Shown piece after piece: positions 24,900-59,074 of a stretch of 64,000 nucleotides of DNA. The notes under the pieces were generated by a model. It had not been told where the DNA came from. It made no database searches and saw nothing but the letters and a program-made list of their open reading frames with translations. The position numbers and the translations under genes are program-made. Numbering within the stretch: the first letter of the stretch is position 1; every line of letters starts with the position of its first letter. Origin of the DNA: Flavobacterium bizetiae (lineage in GTDB: Bacteria > Bacteroidota > Bacteroidia > Flavobacteriales > Flavobacteriaceae); assembly GCF_902804475.1 (NCBI RefSeq), contig NZ_CADCSU010000087.1, forward strand, positions 124,001-188,000. Reading direction: 5' to 3'.

Positions 24900-25030
24900 A
24901 TGCAAAAAACTTAGCGTCTCTGCGTCTTTGCGAGATTATTTTTTAATTTTAGGAGCTATTCCCGCTATCCGTTCCAATCTTTTGTGCCGAACCCCGGCAC
25001 AAAAGGATTTCCACTTCTATCGGGGCTAAA
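24900..25030. repeat. Dispersed intergenic repeat with internal hairpin
   Basis: The segment has a CTTAGCGTCTCTGCGTCTTTGCGAG-like left part, then a conserved-looking block from about 24952 that includes the perfect stem TTTTGTGCCG / CGGCACAAAA around GAACCC, and TATCGGGGCTAAAA at its end. It has no good reading frame and sits between unrelated genes. From memory, blocks of this kind are common in Flavobacterium genomes; only one copy is in this window. Confidence 0.5.
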
Positions 25031-25039
25031 AATCACGTC

Positions 25040-44949: not shown

Positions 44950-45018
44950 ATGAAATTTACAGTTTGCAATATGATGTCTTGTAAGATGCCGGAGTTATCC
45001 GCAGAGACGCTATTGTAA
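44950..45018 (+). CDS. Met/Cys leader peptide 1 (candidate attenuator)
   Basis: 22 codons, ATG at 44950 and TAA at 45016. Met stands at residues 1, 8, 9 and 13 and Cys at 6 and 11, so six of the first 13 residues are sulfur amino acids. Two Met codons are adjacent (ATGATG). The C-terminal part (PELSAETLL) is ordinary. GCAGAG at 45001-45006, inside the ORF near its end, can pair with CTCTGC at 45046-45051, the 5' arm of the following terminator. A ribosome stalled on the Met/Cys codons would leave it free; one reaching the stop codon would cover it. The controlled gene is the TonB receptor at 45136. Confidence 0.78.
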   Translation: MKFTVCNMMSCKMPELSAETLL

Positions 45019-45041
45019 TTTTTTTTCAAAAATATAAATAG

Positions 45042-45072
45042 AAACCTCTGCAGATTGCAGAGGTTTTTTTTT
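45042..45072 (+). terminator. Attenuator terminator 1
   Basis: The stem AACCTCTGC (45043-45051) / GCAGAGGTT (45057-45065) with loop AGATT is followed by nine T residues. It sits between leader peptide 1 and the receptor gene, so it must be bypassed for receptor expression. Confidence 0.9.
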
Positions 45073-45135: not shown

Positions 45136-47982
45136 ATGAAAAAAAATGTACTAATCGTTTTAGGTCTGCTCACGTTTTCAGGTGTTTATGCTCAGGAAAA
45201 TAAAAAAGAACAAGATAGCCTGAAAAATAATGAGTTATCTGAAGTAACAATAGTAGGATCGAGGAGTAAAAACAGAGTAAAAACTGATGTCCCTGTTCCT
45301 GTAGATGTTTTTAATATTTCTGACATTACAAAAGGTTCGCCACAAACAAGCGTTACCCAGATCTTAAATTACGTTGCCCCTTCTTTTACCAGTAATGCGA
45401 CTTCTACTGCAGATGCTACAGATCACGTCGATCCTGCACAATTAAGAGGTTTAGGTCCGGATCAGGTTTTAATATTAGTAAATGGTAAACGCAGACATTC
45501 AAGCGCATTAGTAAATATCAACGGATCTCCGGGAAGAGGATCTGTAGGAACAGATTTAAATGCAATTCCATCATTCGCTATTGAAAGAATCGAAGTTTTA
45601 CGTGACGGTGCAGCTGCTCAATACGGTTCAGATGCTATCGCCGGAGTAATTAATATTGTATTAAAAAAGAATGCTAACTTTATTTCGGGAGGTATTCAAT
45701 ATGGTACCAATTTATCTTCAGGATCTAATAATTTTAAAGGTGGAGCTGATGGACAAACCGTACAGGCAGATTTAAACTACGGAACGTCTTTAGGTAAAGA
45801 AGGAAGTTTCCTGAACATTACCGGAAGCGCCGTAACCAGACAGGCAACAAGCAGAGCTGGAATTAGAAACGGTACTATTTTTAATGCTTACAATGCAATA
45901 GAAAACAGAGCTGCTCAAAATGGAGTTGCTATCAATTCATTGTTTAGCAATATTAATAACACGCCAAATACGTCGCAAATTCTTAGCACATTGCAGCAAT
46001 ATGCTCCACAAGTAAGTTATTTTACGCCGGCACAACAAACCGCAATTTCTTCTGCAACAACACTTACGCAAATGCAAAATGCTTTAAATTTTGATGTTAC
46101 TAATAATGAAATTGCTTACAGAGGTCAGGAAAGAAGCGATTATAATATGAGTGTTGGTCAGTCAGAATTGGCATCGGGACAACTATATTATAATACAAAA
46201 TATCCTTTGTCTGATATTACATCTTTGTATTCTTTTGGGGGACTTTCGTATAGAAATGGTAAATCTTATGCTTTTAACAGATTGCCAAATGCTTCCGGTG
46301 CTTTCACGCAAGTGTATCAAAACGGATTTTTACCAGAAATAGAATCGTCTATACTAGATGCTTCTGCAGCGCTTGGTGTTACGACAAATATATTAGGTTT
46401 TGATACCGATTTAAGTACAAATTTGGGAACAAACTCTTTTCAATACGATGTAAACAATACTATTAATGCGACTTTGGGAGTAAATTCTCCTTCTAGTTTT
46501 GATGCTGGTAAAGTTTCATTTTTACAAAGTACCACCAATTTAGATTTCAGTAAAAAGTTAGATGTTCTGGAAGGATTAAACGTTGCTTTTGGTGGAGAAT
46601 TCAGATATGAAAACTATCAGATAAAAGCTGGGGAAGAAGCTTCTTACGGATTGTATGATGTAAATGGAGCTTTAGTTTCCGGAATTCTGCCAAGTAATTC
46701 ACCATTGATCGTAACAGATTTTTATGGTAATAAGCGCGGAGCAGGAGCACAGGGATTCTCAGGATTTCAGCCTTCTGATGCTAAAGAAAAAGACAGAAAA
46801 AGTGGTGCAGCTTATCTTGATTTAGAATTGAATGTTACTAAAAACTGGCTTTTAAACGGTGCCGCTCGTTATGAAAATTATTCAGATTTTGGAAGTACAG
46901 TAATCTTTAAACTGGCTTCTCTTTTAAAACTGAACGATAATATTAATTGGAGAATTTCCGGACAAACAGGTTTTAGAGCGCCATCATTACAACAAAAATA
47001 TTTTGAATCAAGTTCTACTCAGTTCATCAACGGTGCACCTTATCAGGTAGGTTATTTTACAAATGATTCTCAGGCAGCTAAAAGTATTGGAGTTGAAAGT
47101 TTAAAACCTGAAAAATCTAAAAGTATCAGTACAGGATTTACATTCAAAATTCCTGAAGCCAATATTACAATTGCAACAGATGCTTATTTTACAAGAATCG
47201 ACGACAGAGTAGTTTTAACAGGACAATATGCAAGACCAACAGATGCTCAGATCACGGCGGCAACATCACAACAGCAAAAAGATGCATTGACTTTGTTTCA
47301 ACAGGCATTTGATTTAAAAGGTGTAGAAAGAGCATCGTTCTGGACTAACGGGATTGACTCTGAAACAAAAGGTATAGATGTGGTGATTTCTCAAAAATAC
47401 GATGTAATCCAGGACTTTACTATTAGAAACGATTTTGCTTTAAGTTATAATACCACCAAAAGAGTAGGGAAATTGAATGTTCCTCAATCTATTATTGATG
47501 CAGGTGGAGATCCTTATGTGTATTCATTTTTTCCGGAATCAAGCAGAGTTTATTTAGAAGAGGCAATTCCTAAATTGAAAGCAAATTTAATGACAACATT
47601 TAGTATCAAAAAACTGGATATTTATTTAAGAAACAGCTATTTCGGAAAAGTAACTGATCCGGGAGCAACAGATGTAAATCTTGACGGATCGTCTTCTGTT
47701 TATGAGCACCCTGAATACAGCGCTAAAATTGTTACCGATTTATCTTTAGGATATCAAATCAATGAGAAATTCAGATTTACAATTGGTCTTAATAATATAG
47801 GAGATGTTTATCCGGACAGAAACAATCCTGCAACTCCGGCCTTTACGAATACAACGCCAACATTGTCTCCTGCGCCAAGCACAGATTTAACAAACGCAAA
47901 TCAGTTTGCTTATTCAAGAGCGGTATCACAATTTGGATTGAACGGAAGATTTGGTTTTGCCAGATTAAGTTTTAAGTTCTAA
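45136..47982 (+). CDS. TonB-dependent receptor, candidate sulfur-compound importer
   Basis: 948 residues. A signal peptide (MKKNVLIVLGLLTFSGVYAQ) precedes a TonB-box-like segment (LSEVTIVGSRSKNR), a plug (NISDITKGSPQTSVTQILNYVAPSF, QLRGLGPDQVLILVNGKRRHSSALVN, ERIEVLRDGAAAQYGSDAIAGVINIVLKK), then a 22-strand barrel that ends QFGLNGRFGFARLSFKF, with aromatic Phe at the end. No carboxypeptidase-like N-terminal domain is present and no SusD gene follows, so it is not a polysaccharide SusC. The Met/Cys attenuator in its leader suggests that its cargo supplies sulfur or methionine, as inference only. Confidence 0.93.
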   Translation: MKKNVLIVLGLLTFSGVYAQENKKEQDSLKNNELSEVTIVGSRSKNRVKTDVPVPVDVFNISDITKGSPQTSVTQILNYVAPSFTSNATSTADATDHVDPAQLRGLGPDQVLILVNGKRRHSSALVNINGSPGRGSVGTDLNAIPSFAIERIEVLRDGAAAQYGSDAIAGVINIVLKKNANFISGGIQYGTNLSSGSNNFKGGADGQTVQADLNYGTSLGKEGSFLNITGSAVTRQATSRAGIRNGTIFNAYNAIENRAAQNGVAINSLFSNINNTPNTSQILSTLQQYAPQVSYFTPAQQTAISSATTLTQMQNALNFDVTNNEIAYRGQERSDYNMSVGQSELASGQLYYNTKYPLSDITSLYSFGGLSYRNGKSYAFNRLPNASGAFTQVYQNGFLPEIESSILDASAALGVTTNILGFDTDLSTNLGTNSFQYDVNNTINATLGVNSPSSFDAGKVSFLQSTTNLDFSKKLDVLEGLNVAFGGEFRYENYQIKAGEEASYGLYDVNGALVSGILPSNSPLIVTDFYGNKRGAGAQGFSGFQPSDAKEKDRKSGAAYLDLELNVTKNWLLNGAARYENYSDFGSTVIFKLASLLKLNDNINWRISGQTGFRAPSLQQKYFESSSTQFINGAPYQVGYFTNDSQAAKSIGVESLKPEKSKSISTGFTFKIPEANITIATDAYFTRIDDRVVLTGQYARPTDAQITAATSQQQKDALTLFQQAFDLKGVERASFWTNGIDSETKGIDVVISQKYDVIQDFTIRNDFALSYNTTKRVGKLNVPQSIIDAGGDPYVYSFFPESSRVYLEEAIPKLKANLMTTFSIKKLDIYLRNSYFGKVTDPGATDVNLDGSSSVYEHPEYSAKIVTDLSLGYQINEKFRFTIGLNNIGDVYPDRNNPATPAFTNTTPTLSPAPSTDLTNANQFAYSRAVSQFGLNGRFGFARLSFKF

Positions 47983-48220: not shown

Positions 48221-48235
48221 TCTATCGAATTAGTC
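48216..48235. promoter_or_regulatory. Candidate sulfur-regulon operator, site C
   Basis: TTTACTCTATCGAATTAGTC overlaps the -7 element. Its reverse complement (CTAATTCGATAGAGTAAA) matches the core of the site at 44860 at all but two positions in 18. Overlap with -7 fits a repressor. Confidence 0.45.
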
Positions 48236-48274
48236 GAGTTTAAAATAAGAGATTAATTTTTAAATAAAATAAAA

Positions 48275-48355
48275 ATGAAAACAATAGCGAAAAATATGAT
48301 GATATGTTGTGAGATGATGCAAATGTGCATCCCAATTCGCTGTTGCCAAAAGTGA
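48275..48355 (+). CDS. Met/Cys leader peptide 2 (candidate attenuator)
   Basis: 26 codons, ATG 48275 to TGA 48355. Met occurs at residues 1, 8, 9, 14, 15 and 17 and Cys at 11, 12, 18, 23 and 24: eleven sulfur residues of 26, including two MM and two CC pairs. CCAAAAG at 48346-48352, which spans the last codons before the stop, can pair with CTTTTGG at 48392-48398 in the 5' arm of the terminator. Stalling at the Met or Cys codons would therefore free an antiterminator, and translation to the stop would block it. The downstream genes are a small protein and metY. Confidence 0.85.
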   Translation: MKTIAKNMMICCEMMQMCIPIRCCQK

Positions 48356-48386
48356 AAGATAAAATCTTTGTTATAGTTAGAACTAT

Positions 48387-48424
48387 AAGCCCTTTTGGTA
48401 GCCATCCTAAAGGGCTTTTTTTTT
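48387..48424 (+). terminator. Attenuator terminator 2
   Basis: AAGCCCTTT (48387-48395) pairs with AAAGGGCTT (48409-48417), followed by a run of T to 48424. It lies between leader peptide 2 and the small gene at 48451. Confidence 0.9.
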
Positions 48425-48450: not shown

Positions 48451-48648
48451 ATGAAAACGCTAAACTCAATCGCAGTAGAATATTTATTAAGAAACGATTC
48501 TCAAAATAATACCAATAATAAATCTGAAGACATTACAAGAGAAGTGGCAAGATTAAATGCAGAGCAGGCTGTAATAAGAAGTCAAAAATCATTATTGCTT
48601 TTAATGTATAATATTGAAGAAGAAGGAGACGATTTTTTTATTCAATAA
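48451..48648 (+). CDS. Small protein upstream of metY, SLLxLMY family
   Basis: 65 residues starting MKTLNSIAVEYLLRNDSQNN. The N-terminal two-thirds is polar and Asn-rich, then helical (EVARLNAEQAVIRSQ). The C-terminus, SLLLLMYNIEEEGDDFFI, closely resembles SLLFLMYSKENETLFI at the end of the 63-residue protein at 51950. Both genes stand between a Met/Cys attenuator terminator and a methionine gene, so the pair looks like a small-protein family tied to methionine synthesis. No known domain was recognised. The gap to metY is 71 bases. Confidence 0.72.
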   Translation: MKTLNSIAVEYLLRNDSQNNTNNKSEDITREVARLNAEQAVIRSQKSLLLLMYNIEEEGDDFFIQ

Positions 48649-48719: not shown

Positions 48720-50024
48720 ATGAGCACACAAAAATTCGCTACAAACGCACTACACGCAGGACACGATGTTACTAAAAATGCAGGGACCAGAGCAGTGCCA
48801 ATTTACCAGACATCATCATATGTATTTAACGATTCAGATCATGCTGCCAATTTATTTGGTCTTGCCGAAGCCGGATTTATCTATACACGATTAAACAACC
48901 CGACAAACGATATTTTAGAACAACGTCTTGCAGCGCTTGAGGGCGGAATTGGAGCTGTAGTTACAGCGTCTGGAGCATCGGCAATTTCTACAGCTTTATT
49001 GACATTGCTAAAAGCGGGCGATCATATTGTTGCTTCGAATAGTTTATACGGAGGAACTTATAATTTGCTAAATGTAACTTTACCTCGTCTAGGAATTACA
49101 ACCACTTTTGTAGATCCTTCTCAACCGGAAAATTTCACAAAAGCGGCCAAAGAAAATACAAGAGCCTTTTTTGTAGAATCTCTGGGAAATCCAAAATTAG
49201 ATGTACTAGATCTGAAAGGAATTTCGGCGGAAGCCAAAAACTTTAAGGTACCTTTTATTGTAGACAATACGGTTGCTACTCCTTATTTATTAAACCCAAT
49301 TGAATATGGAGCAGATATCGTAATTCACTCTTTAACTAAATATATTTCAGGAAACGGAACTTCATTAGGAGGCGTTATCATCGATGCAGGAAAATTTGAC
49401 TGGTCGAACGGAAAATTTCCTGAATTCACAGAACCTTCTGCAGGATATCACGGATTAGTGTATCACGAAGCTTTAGGAAATGCAGCTTTCATAGCAAAAG
49501 CAAGAATCGAAGGTTTGCGTGATTTTGGTGCCGCTTTGAGTCCGTTTAATGCTTTCCAGATCATTCAGGGATTAGAAACATTACCAATCCGAATCAAGAA
49601 ACATAGCGAAAATGCTTTGGCTTTAGCCTCTTGGTTAGAAAAGCAAGAAGAAGTGGTTTGGGTAAATTATCCAGGTCTTAAAAACAATAAGTATTATGAT
49701 TTGGCACAACAATATTTGCCAAAAGGACAAAGTGGTGTAATTACTTTTGGACTAAAAGGTGGTTTTGATGCCGCTAAAAAAGTGGTAGATCAAACTAAAT
49801 TGTTCTCTCTTTTAGCCAATATTGGTGATACAAAATCATTAATCATTCATCCGGCAAGTACTACACACCAACAATTGTCTGATGCTGACCAACTAGAAAC
49901 GGGAGTTTCAAAAGATTTAGTCCGACTTTCTGTCGGAATTGAAGATATCGAGGATTTAATAGCTGATTTGCAGGCTGCTTTCGCAAGCGTTACCCAATCG
50001 CAATACAGTATTAATAAAAATTAG
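48720..50024 (+). CDS. metY: O-acetylhomoserine sulfhydrylase
   Basis: 434 residues, the long MetY type of the Cys/Met PLP family. The lysine Schiff-base motif is IVIHSLTKYISGNGTSLGGVI. The N-terminus FATNALHAGHDVTKNAGTRAVPIYQTSSYVF and RLNNPTNDILEQRLAALEGG are typical of MetY, and LLANIGDTKSLIIHPASTTHQQLSDADQLETGVSKDLVRLSVGIED is the C-terminal signature. It makes homocysteine from O-acetylhomoserine and sulfide. It lies behind a Met/Cys attenuator and before a homoserine dehydrogenase-like gene. Confidence 0.95.
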   Translation: MSTQKFATNALHAGHDVTKNAGTRAVPIYQTSSYVFNDSDHAANLFGLAEAGFIYTRLNNPTNDILEQRLAALEGGIGAVVTASGASAISTALLTLLKAGDHIVASNSLYGGTYNLLNVTLPRLGITTTFVDPSQPENFTKAAKENTRAFFVESLGNPKLDVLDLKGISAEAKNFKVPFIVDNTVATPYLLNPIEYGADIVIHSLTKYISGNGTSLGGVIIDAGKFDWSNGKFPEFTEPSAGYHGLVYHEALGNAAFIAKARIEGLRDFGAALSPFNAFQIIQGLETLPIRIKKHSENALALASWLEKQEEVVWVNYPGLKNNKYYDLAQQYLPKGQSGVITFGLKGGFDAAKKVVDQTKLFSLLANIGDTKSLIIHPASTTHQQLSDADQLETGVSKDLVRLSVGIEDIEDLIADLQAAFASVTQSQYSINKN

Positions 50025-51700: not shown

Positions 51701-51802
51701 ATGCAAGAATTTTTTAAAATAGCAATTAAATCACAGATGAATAAATCCCTACAGATGAACAAGATGTTTAATGTCGCACGTATTTGTGTACAAGTCTGTT
51801 GA
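51701..51802 (+). CDS. Met/Cys leader peptide 3 (candidate attenuator)
   Basis: 33 codons, ATG 51701 to TGA 51802. Met at residues 1, 13, 19 and 22 and Cys at 29 and 33. An internal ATG at 51737 would give a 21-residue peptide that is denser in Met/Cys, so the true start is not certain. CTAAAAG at 51805-51811, just after the stop and within the footprint of a terminating ribosome, can pair with CTTTTGG (51840-51846) at the 5' arm of the terminator with one G-U pair. The next genes are a small protein, a SAM-I riboswitch, metX and thrA. Confidence 0.72.
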   Translation: MQEFFKIAIKSQMNKSLQMNKMFNVARICVQVC

Positions 51803-51834
51803 TACTAAAAGTATATATAAGTTGTAAAAAACTT

Positions 51835-51870
51835 AAACCCTTTTGGTATTTTAATCAAAAGGGTTTTTTT
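51835..51870 (+). terminator. Attenuator terminator 3
   Basis: AAACCCTTTTG (51835-51845) pairs with CAAAAGGGTTT (51856-51866) and ends in seven T residues. It closely resembles terminator 2 in sequence. Confidence 0.9.
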
Positions 51871-51949: not shown

Positions 51950-52141
51950 ATGAGCACAATCAACTACCTAAGAAAAAAACTTTTCAGAAGCAAAATCGAA
52001 AGAAATAATCCTCCGCCAGTTAACGAATTGATCCATCCAAGTTTCGGAATAACTGAGACTGATAAAAAAGCGGAGAAAAAAGAACCAAATTCATTATTGT
52101 TTTTGATGTATTCAAAAGAAAATGAAACTCTTTTCATCTAA
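51950..52141 (+). CDS. Small protein upstream of metX, SLLxLMY family
   Basis: 63 residues, starting MSTINYLRKKLFRSKIERNN with a basic amphipathic start and a Pro-rich middle (PPPVNELIHPSFGI). The C-terminus, SLLFLMYSKENETLFI, parallels that of the protein at 48451. The rest of the two proteins is not alignable by eye. The gene is bounded by attenuator terminator 3 and the SAM-I riboswitch, so it would be expressed when Met or Cys is scarce. No known family was recognised. Confidence 0.68.
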   Translation: MSTINYLRKKLFRSKIERNNPPPVNELIHPSFGITETDKKAEKKEPNSLLFLMYSKENETLFI

Positions 52142-52304: not shown

Positions 52305-52331
52305 ACCGTTAAGTTCAAATACGTATTGAAA

Positions 52332-52438
52332 TGTTATAAAGAAAGGACGAGGGATTAGACCCGATGAATCCTTAGCAACCCTTCGTTAAATCGAAGAAGG
52401 TGCTGCATTCTACCACGCCCAAACGTGGAAAGATAACA
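52332..52438 (+). ncRNA. SAM-I (S-box) riboswitch
   Basis: The S-box consensus is clear: GACGAGGGATTAGACCCGAT then GAATCCTTAGCAACCC (P2 and its kink-turn side), the P3 stem CTTCG...CGAAG, AAGGTGCTGCATTCTACC, and a P4 stem ACGC...CGTGGAAAGAT. P1 can form from TGTTAT (52332-52337) and ATAACA (52433-52438). AAAGAAAG at 52338-52345 is also complementary to CTTTCTTT at 52467-52474, a possible alternative pairing downstream. There is no obvious terminator in between. It should turn off metX and thrA when SAM is plentiful. Confidence 0.93.
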
Positions 52439-52510
52439 ACAAGAATTTTCTAGTTTCACTCTAGTACTTTCTTTCTAATATTTCCACATACAAATCAAAA
52501 TTAAAAAGAT

Positions 52511-53500
52511 TTGAAATTGGAAAATATACCAAGTCCCATTATAATTCAAGATTTCATCACAGAAAGTGGTGCATCATACCCATTATTGCCATTAAGCTTT
52601 ACACTTTTTGGTTTGCCATTGCATAGCGCGCCTATAGTTTTGGTTAATCATGCTTTAACCGGAAACGCTCAGGTTACCGGAGAAAATGGCTGGTGGAATG
52701 ACTTAATTGGCGACGAAAAAACAATCGACACCAACAAATATACCATATTGGCATTCGACGTTCCTGGAAACGGGAATGATTCTTTTATCATCGAAAACTA
52801 TCAGGATTTTACAACAAGAGATATTGCCCGAATTTTTATTAAAGGTTTAGAGGCATTAAATATTGTCCAGGTACACACCATTATTGGTGGTTCTGTAGGT
52901 GGAGGAATTGCATGGGAAATTCTTGCATTAGAACCAAACATTACTCAAAACCTGATACCTATTGCAACCGACTGGAAATCGACAGACTGGATGATTGCAA
53001 ATTGCTACCTGCAAGAGCAAATCCTGAACAATTCTTCAAAACCTATAGAAGATGCCAGAATTCATGCTATGTTGTGTTATCGCTCTCCTGAATCATTCAA
53101 AGAAAAATTTCAAAGAACAATCAATAACGAACTTTCTATTTTTAATATAGAAAGCTGGTTGGCGCATCACGGCCAAAAACTACAAAAGAGATACCAATTG
53201 GCATCATATAAACTGATGAACCAATTGCTTAAAACCATAGATATTACCAGAAATAGTGAGGATTTCGAAACTTTATTGTCCAGAACAAATGCAGCGATTT
53301 ATATTATCGGAATCAATTCAGATTTGTTTTTTACACCAAAAGAAAATCGGGAAACTTATCAGGTATTAAAAAAGTTCAAAGACAATGTTTTTTACAGCGA
53401 AATAGATTCGGTTCACGGACATGACGCTTTTTTAATCGAGTACAAACAATTAGATCATTTACTTGCCGACATTTTTAAGGCAGAAACAATAGAAAAATAA
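52511..53500 (+). CDS. metX: Homoserine O-acetyltransferase-like alpha/beta hydrolase
   Basis: 329 residues. The nucleophile elbow is GGSVGGGIAWE (Ser), preceded by VNHALTGNAQVTGENGWWNDLIG, the oxyanion-hole motif of MetX, and followed by late Asp (GINSDLFFTPKEN) and His (SVHGHDAFLIEY) of the triad. It acetylates homoserine. There is no ATG in this part of the frame, so a TTG start at 52511 (or 52517) is needed, which would hold translation low. Its stop is one base before the ATG of the fused enzyme, and both lie behind the SAM-I riboswitch. It is somewhat short for MetX (~350-380). Confidence 0.92.
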   Translation: MKLENIPSPIIIQDFITESGASYPLLPLSFTLFGLPLHSAPIVLVNHALTGNAQVTGENGWWNDLIGDEKTIDTNKYTILAFDVPGNGNDSFIIENYQDFTTRDIARIFIKGLEALNIVQVHTIIGGSVGGGIAWEILALEPNITQNLIPIATDWKSTDWMIANCYLQEQILNNSSKPIEDARIHAMLCYRSPESFKEKFQRTINNELSIFNIESWLAHHGQKLQKRYQLASYKLMNQLLKTIDITRNSEDFETLLSRTNAAIYIIGINSDLFFTPKENRETYQVLKKFKDNVFYSEIDSVHGHDAFLIEYKQLDHLLADIFKAETIEK

Positions 53501-58663: not shown

Positions 58664-59074
58664 GTGCTTTCAAAGAAAACAAAATACGGAATTAAGGCTT
58701 TAACTTATTTAGCTAGACGTGAAAATAATGAACCTGTACAAATTGCCGAAATTGCTAAAAGTGAACATATTTCGATAAAATTCCTGGAAAGTATTTTGTT
58801 ATTACTTAGAAATTCTGGTTTCCTTGGCGCTAAAAAAGGAAAAGGCGGAGGTTATTATCTGATAAAAGATCCAAAAGATATCAGTATGGCCAAAGTATAC
58901 CGAATCCTTGAAGGTCCAATTGCATTACTGCCTTGTGCGAGTCATAATTTTTATGAAAGATGCGACGATTGTGATGACGAAACTACTTGTGCAGCAAGAC
59001 GTTTAATGATGGAAGTTAGAGATAATACACTTAAAATATTAGAAAGTAATTCCCTGGCAGATATTGCATTTTAA
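58664..59074 (+). CDS. Rrf2 family transcriptional regulator
   Basis: 136 residues beginning at GTG 58664, the usual Rrf2 start (LSKKTKYGIKALTYLARR). The winged helix follows (IAEIAKSEHISIKFLESILLLLRNSGFL, AKKGKGGGYYLIKDP). Four Cys (residues 91, 100, 103 and 109) suggest a metal cluster or redox sensor. CymR and other members control cysteine and sulfur genes, and here the gene stands between methionine and sulfate assimilation genes, so it is the best candidate regulator of the cluster. A role for an iron-sulfur cluster is inferred only. Confidence 0.92.
   Translation: MLSKKTKYGIKALTYLARRENNEPVQIAEIAKSEHISIKFLESILLLLRNSGFLGAKKGKGGGYYLIKDPKDISMAKVYRILEGPIALLPCASHNFYERCDDCDDETTCAARRLMMEVRDNTLKILESNSLADIAF

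Follow-up and report, generated by a model that had tools for sequence, protein, structure and literature searches.

A probable Met/Cys leader-peptide attenuator ahead of metY in Flavobacterium bizetiae, its tandem partner, and SAM riboswitches in its place in relatives

Leader-peptide transcription attenuators of the trp/his/thr/phe type are a known class, and cysteine leader peptides at the cys operons of mycobacteria are reportedly the subject of work by Canestrari from 2020. In the sections concerned of one study (PMC1262725), Cys leaders are predicted in Actinobacteria, those ahead of the cys operons in mycobacteria and their relatives come without conserved terminator hairpins, and no RNA structure is predicted for the methionine operons there. 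T-boxes or riboswitches can be exchanged for leader peptides (PMC2965389, section concerned), and leader ORFs can be doubled: in the Salmonella mgtCBR leader, two short ORFs are thought to govern stem-loops and transcription (PMC3641672, in its relevant part). In F. psychrophilum, there are clues for leader-peptide attenuation at amino acid operons, with conserved 5' elements at pheA, hisG and others (PMC9723704, one section), and Bacteroides 5' UTRs contain short ORFs resembling leader peptides (PMC7366714, in part). Searches of open-licence PMC papers turned up no Met-sensing leader peptide. Leader-peptide attenuation is a known kind of control that is suspected in flavobacteria; the Met/Cys specificity, the tandem build and the exchange with SAM riboswitches described below would be new.

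The locus lies on Flavobacterium bizetiae contig NZ_CADCSU010000087.1 (GCF_902804475.1), in a stretch of 64,000 nt (forward strand, 124,001-188,000) that is called the window and whose own numbering is used throughout; features are on the plus strand unless stated otherwise. Leader 2, a 26-codon ORF with homologues in relatives (MKTIAKNMMICCEMMQMCIPIRCCQK, 48275-48355), is very probably part of a trp-type transcription attenuator in which the ribosome would sense charged Met-tRNA and Cys-tRNA. Like the trp/his/thr/phe attenuators, it combines a cluster of codons for pathway end products with a terminator, a competing antiterminator and a ribosome whose position would be the switch; unlike them, it uses Met and Cys codons, has serial units in many relatives, resides in a Bacteroidota host and shows no convincing 1:2 hairpin in fold predictions. 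With the mycobacterial Cys leaders it shares a short Cys-codon-rich ORF ahead of sulfur amino acid genes, but in contrast to the polycysteine leaders as they appear in that part of PMC1262725, leaders of its type have an intrinsic terminator and mix Met with Cys. The mgtCBR tandem attenuators likewise have two short ORFs per leader but serve other genes (PMC3641672, same part), and the attenuators suspected in F. psychrophilum belong to the same genus and to amino acid operons, with metY, Met and Cys unnamed in the section (PMC9723704). Finally, SAM-I (S-box) and SAM-II riboswitches have the same target genes and, in relatives, take the equivalent position ahead of metY, but bind SAM via an aptamer, whereas leader 2 is an ORF, presumed to be read as it is translated, that has no Rfam match.

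Leader 2 is one half of a tandem pair with leader 1 (MKFTVCNMMSCKMPELSAETLL, 44950-45018); in many relatives, one leader directly follows the other ahead of metY. Here, leader 1, with its own region 2 (TCCGCAGAG, 44998-45006) and terminator (45040-45068), stands ahead of a gene for a TonB-dependent receptor (45136-47982), which comes between the two leaders. Downstream of leader 2, a 65-aa ORF without a Pfam or NCBIfam match (48451-48648) fills the gap between the terminator and metY, which encodes O-acetylhomoserine aminocarboxypropyltransferase (48720-50024; TIGR01326, 649 bits, cut-off 495); this is the placement, before a small gene and metY, that the earlier note had given.

Re-reading of the leader 2 ORF returns the earlier note's count of 6 Met (codons 1, 8, 9, 14, 15 and 17) and 5 Cys (codons 11, 12, 18, 23 and 24) in 26 residues, with two MM and two CC pairs, and its description of this richness as far above chance holds: among 376 window ORFs of 15-45 aa on both strands, leader 2 alone exceeds 5 Met+Cys when the start codon is left out of the count, reaching 10. 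In the richest 12 codons, at least 6 Met/Cys are present in all 49 type-2 leaders, many of which are close relatives and therefore do not count independently, and in 3 of 2676 background ORFs (taken from the window and 29 named metY loci without a leader), leader 2 itself being among the 3. Type-1 leaders are milder, with 5 Met/Cys in 8/28 and 6-7 in 20/28; at least 5 are reached by 17 of the 2676 background ORFs. Across the 80 named loci, 4 minus-strand ORFs carry 8-9 Met+Cys, which shows that such richness can, if rarely, come about by chance. Spacing and composition point to codons 8-18 (MMICCEMMQMC, 48296-48328), 8 of which are Met or Cys, as the likely sensor; Cys23 and Cys24 probably lie outside it, because both fall within the antiterminator strand. 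The start of the ORF is preceded by A at both -3 and -6, positions at which A acts positively in the ribosome profiling published for F. johnsoniae cells in rich medium (PMC6847099, section concerned).

The 3' end of the ORF merges with a set of RNA elements. Region 2 (GCTGTTGCCAAAAG, 48339-48352), the predicted 5' strand of the antiterminator, begins 10 nt past the last sensor codon; it is followed by the small hairpins H1 (48355-48369) and H2 (48373-48386) and by region 3 (CCCTTTTGGTAGC, 48390-48402), the 5' arm of the terminator and 3' strand of the antiterminator. The intrinsic terminator with its U-run occupies 48387-48424 (stem 48387-48417, then U), and a plus-strand consensus scan from 48425 to the end of metY found no additional terminator-like site. 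The complementary heptamers on which the earlier note built its pairing, CCAAAAG and CTTTTGG, are located where it put them, at 48346-48352 and 48392-48398. The ORF, its composition and spacing, the covarying terminator, the conserved complementarity of region 2 to the terminator arm and the placement beside genes for sulfur amino acids are all features of the sequence itself.

From these features, we infer that leader 2 is translated, that ribosomes stall within it and that it responds to Met and Cys. When both amino acids are abundant, the ribosome would reach the stop codon and cover region 2; region 3 would then pair with region 4 to form the terminator, leaving the small ORF and metY untranscribed. 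When Met or Cys is scarce, the ribosome would stall within codons 8-18 with its front edge near the start of region 2, regions 2 and 3 would pair before region 4 is made, and the polymerase would read through. The ribosome footprint is such that an A site on the last sensor codon would place the front edge near the start of region 2, and with this footprint the geometry of the stall codons fits: a stalled ribosome would free region 2 and a terminating one would cover it. The distance of 10 nt recurs in 38/49 type-2 leaders, with 4 to 13 nt in the others, and in 27/27 type-1 leaders the last sensor codon lies 11-12 nt ahead of region 2, again with many close relatives among them; these counts omit leader 2 of L087 and L103, which the terminator finder missed and which were aligned from hand-set coordinates, and leader 1 of L058.

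Predicted folds are consistent with such a switch. When region 4 is absent (RNA 48339-48404), the minimum-energy fold is the antiterminator with the two small hairpins (-18.0 kcal/mol, z -3.9, 0/200 shuffles equally good), and the RNA left free by a ribosome at the stop codon (48368-48424) folds into the terminator (-17.0). With every region free, the terminator is slightly more stable than the antiterminator (-19.9 vs. -18.0); since the terminator is favored once region 4 exists, the leader 2 switch would have to be kinetic. Leaders 1 and 3 show similar folds. As for a 1:2 hairpin, none of convincing size is predicted for leader 2, merely a 4-pair local hairpin within the sensor, and RNAalifold predicts one for leader 1.

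Covariation was scored in A1, an alignment of 34 leaders, by comparing double-change cells with shuffles. In the leader 2 terminator, 97.1% of cells are paired, both sides have changed in 7/12 pairs and there are 51 double-change cells vs. 17.9 shuffled; changes on both sides are also present in 5/6 pairs of H1 and 4/6 pairs of H2, with 77.0 and 69.3% of cells paired. The antiterminator alone is paired in 83.6% of cells, compared with 81.6% in shuffles and no more than 51.7% in slid registers; it has double changes in 3/14 pairs (2.0 shuffled) and in 4 cells vs. 2.3 (87/500 shuffles as high), scores 0.088 vs. 0.068 shuffled (10/500), and has 10 double-change cells when slid by -2. Including H1 and H2, 78.4% of cells are paired, and 26 of 30 double-change cells sit in the two hairpins. 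The check that the earlier note had proposed, covariation of both sets of arms, came out positive for the terminator, but the leader 2 antiterminator, while conserved, shows scant compensation, and with so few compensatory changes outside H1/H2 the attenuator reading is held slightly less firmly.

Compensation is clearer in the antiterminator of the homologous upstream leader 1. In A3 (78 leader 1 matches, aligned with a model containing terminator pairs only), the terminator is paired in 99.3% of cells with 43 double-change cells vs. 6.7 shuffled, and the antiterminator in 86.4% with 28 vs. 6.2, its score being 0.198 vs. 0.076 (0/500 shuffles). Yet 22 of these 28 cells are concentrated in one pair, the pairs with double change number 3 vs. 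2.0 shuffled (115/500), one outer pair is broken in 55/78, and the score is still 0.151 after sliding by +2, with 20 cells on fewer lettered pairs. In A2, an AU-to-CG exchange in leader 1 region 2 is accompanied by a terminator-arm exchange in 10/27. Duplexes of matched strands are only weakly distinguished from mismatched ones by their energies in leader 2 (-12.3 vs. -10.3 kcal/mol, best rank 0/26) and in leader 1 (-12.1 vs. -10.6, best rank 1/23); the between-locus permutation of these energies gave little contrast, because strands from related loci can pair with each other and the duplexes could contain internal loops, and was dropped for column-wise counts. Alignment A4, in which several leader kinds are mixed with minus-strand terminators, was kept out of the counts. 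On this comparative record, complementarity is conserved in leader 2, and compensation is seen chiefly in its terminator and in leader 1.

The codons vary in a manner that bears on what the ORF is for. Among 25 aligned 26-codon leaders (L039, L045, L053 and L061 are excluded for length), Cys12, Met15, Met17, Cys18 and Cys24 are invariant, TGC and TGT are exchanged at codon 18, and codon 13 takes seven different residues. Distant leaders keep the richness but arrange their Met and Cys very differently; both residues occur ahead of region 2 in 49/49 type-2 and 27/28 type-1 leaders. The region 2 core is kept where the reading frame across it differs (L052, L060, L082) or the stop codon comes ahead of it (L066-L068), which suggests that Cys23 and Cys24 of leader 2 are probably by-products of RNA pairing. 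Could the ORF instead encode a functional Met/Cys-rich peptide, e.g., a metal-binding one, with the terminator merely ending the transcript? Small Met/Cys-rich metal-binding proteins exist, the leader ORF is conserved, and the scant compensation in the leader 2 antiterminator speaks for such a peptide; but the order, number and spacing of Met and Cys vary freely, the C-terminus is off-frame or missing in the loci just named while the RNA strand core stays, the end of the leader can pair with the terminator arm, and leaders precede metY-, metX- and cysH-like genes, all of which makes this reading very improbable. Nor does a nascent-chain arrest peptide stand much chance of being the answer: a peptide that senses Met, Cys or SAM in the exit tunnel and stalls the ribosome, in place of hungry codons, would produce identical stall and antiterminator geometry, but arrest peptides usually need a conserved residue order, and here the order is not conserved, composition alone being kept across genera. 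Least credible is a riboswitch of a new kind, with SAM, Met or Cys as its direct ligand and a fortuitous ORF: the leader does occupy the place of the relatives' SAM riboswitches and small covarying hairpins do lie between regions 2 and 3, but 8/11 sensor codons are Met/Cys, a coding signature, 55 of 89 gap runs before region 2 are 3 or 6 bases long (33 single-base gaps stem from a base inserted in L052/L060 and another lost in L082), and no Rfam covariance model, SAM riboswitches and T-box included, reaches its gathering score at the leaders.

The leader-peptide attenuator of metY that the earlier note put forward is well supported: its Met/Cys composition is kept, its spacing and terminator fit, and riboswitches are exchanged for it. 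A Met/Cys leader with a terminator lies within 1000 nt upstream in 51 of 80 named metY loci, a SAM-I-like motif in 26 and SAM-II (Rfam) in 2, and in one (L093) the contig ends 182 nt upstream; a leader and a SAM-I-like motif are found together in 0/80. SAM-I was called by text pattern in the 26 loci, and Rfam, run on 11 loci without a leader, returned 9 SAM-I, all in agreement with the pattern, and 2 SAM-II. On the MetY tree (81 rows), the regulator type changes 3 times vs. a shuffle mean of 24.2 (0/200 as low), with one and two leader/riboswitch exchanges indistinguishable because the deep forks of the tree are weak. The relation of leader 2 to its tandem partner, this exchange and the possible pairing role of the last two Cys codons are additions to the earlier note.

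Model R2 finds leader 1 upstream of metY in the window and in 49 of the 51 named loci of the leader type; L062 is without leader 1, and L074 ends at a contig end. Leader 1 is directly in series with leader 2 in 27/50; in 22/50, window included, the two are parted by an ORF of 948 aa whose N-terminus is similar throughout (in the window, this is the TonB receptor), and in L064, which has no R1 match, leader 1 stands on its own. In 299 genomes of the family (E 1e-5), there are at least 28 R2 and at least 20 R1 matches, both figures being lower bounds from a search with stricter filters. Met/Cys ORFs are present in 26 of the 28 family R2 loci read, with downstream genes (first residues, by eye) that are metY-like in 23 loci, metX-like in 2 and a transposase-like ORF in 1, and nothing in 2; 15 of the 19 family R1 loci read have a leader and 4 have none. 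Outside the family, 18 genomes have R2 matches, and among 11 loci read, 8 are without and 3 have Met- or Met/Cys-rich leaders, before a metY-like (L210), a cysH-like (L211) and a metX-like gene (L213). Within Flavobacterium, L222 has a Met-rich leader ahead of a metY-like gene, and L220 and L221 have a short ORF with few Met/Cys.

Leaders are thus found ahead of metY-, metX- or cysH-like genes, cysH in two genomes. Among the 30 best-scoring PF01507 (cysH/cysD) loci of a longer list, some of which match cysD with an operon start that may fall outside the flank, a script flagged 6, and 2 resemble tandem leaders: L248 and L238, the latter identical in position to L211. The cysH-like gene of L211, from another family, is preceded by MIQIQKNMCCMCMCRNYTEAYYAL and MRTISGIQILTCCCTMTMCCCNCCCLKLPFLRR, the cysH-like gene of L248, a Flavobacterium, by MKIQNNNMMMCMCCSENEGLYATC and MNTITNMSIILLTSTACMMMMCCMQNFARGRLLYCL, and the leader run at the metX-like gene of L213 holds Met and no Cys; the codon make-up of each is a single case. 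The balance tips slightly toward a family of tandem Met/Cys attenuators that spans the clade and can be exchanged for SAM riboswitches, whose codons would track the pathway (a Met-only run at one metX-like gene, a Cys-dominated one at one cysH-like gene) and whose two serial units would multiply the response or sense at different thresholds. If true, methionine would join the amino acids that leader peptides monitor, a single bacterial family would be seen to place either a SAM riboswitch or a ribosome sensor ahead of one and the same gene, and a natural system would be at hand for asking what two serial attenuators compute. Two Gillisia loci (L070:5752-6060 and L071:10735-11045) have a like-built tandem pair that is much poorer in Met/Cys (e.g., MNKVIRNMYKLMWETPTAAAFA) and precedes an ORF resembling homoserine dehydrogenase.

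Within the window, the sulfur gene cluster runs from a metK-like gene through leader 1, the TonB-receptor gene, leader 2, the small ORF, metY, a homoserine dehydrogenase gene and leader 3 to a second small ORF, a SAM-I riboswitch (52331-52439), a metX-like gene (52511-53500; best NCBIfam matches MetX, below their cut-offs) and an aspartokinase/homoserine dehydrogenase gene; Rrf2-like, cysH-, cysD- and cysN-like ORFs (Rrf2, cysD and cysN by eye) lie farther downstream, the Rrf2-family-like regulator at 58664-59074. The metK-like gene (by eye) carries a SAM-II riboswitch (45.5 bits, gathering 44), so that Rfam matches to SAM-I and SAM-II, away from the leaders, and the leaders themselves coexist in a single genome. 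The window's own cysH is without a Met/Cys leader. Leader 3 (MQEFFKIAIKSQMNKSLQMNKMFNVARICVQVC, 51701-51802; region 2, 51801-51811; terminator, 51835-51866) is poorer in Met/Cys, and its region 2 falls after its stop codon. In some relatives (e.g., L053, L060), a worn leader-1-like ORF precedes leader 3, and the tandem module thus seems to have been duplicated. Among 24 loci read in the genome, of which three are the leaders themselves and three more are duplicates or on the minus strand, model matches beyond the three leaders have no Met/Cys-rich ORF. Leader peptides seem to be used for other amino acids in this genome, in which a Phe/Tyr-rich ORF (MSNNRFYFSNSFYFFFSRSEDCAMVI) before pheA and a His-rich ORF (MISIQLHHHHFHYCSQAMC) before hisG both have, by eye, a stem resembling a terminator behind them.

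Ahead of leader 2, the motif CTATCGAATTAGTCGA (48222-48237), downstream of the promoter-like TATATTTAC, is possibly an operator: the pattern CTATNRAATTAGTNGA occurs upstream of metY in 25/52 leader-type loci, window included, and 6 times in the genome, including 3 occurrences ahead of SusC-like receptor ORFs (by eye), vs. 0 for the reversed pattern. The 65-aa ORF behind the leader 2 terminator and a 63-aa ORF behind that of leader 3 (51950-52141), which also belongs to no family known to Pfam or NCBIfam, share a C-terminal SLLxLMYxxE (BLASTP E 0.003), and homologues of the latter mostly have NSLLFLMYSKENETLFI at the end. Elsewhere in the window, Rfam matches a Flavo-1 RNA on the minus strand (24954-25031).
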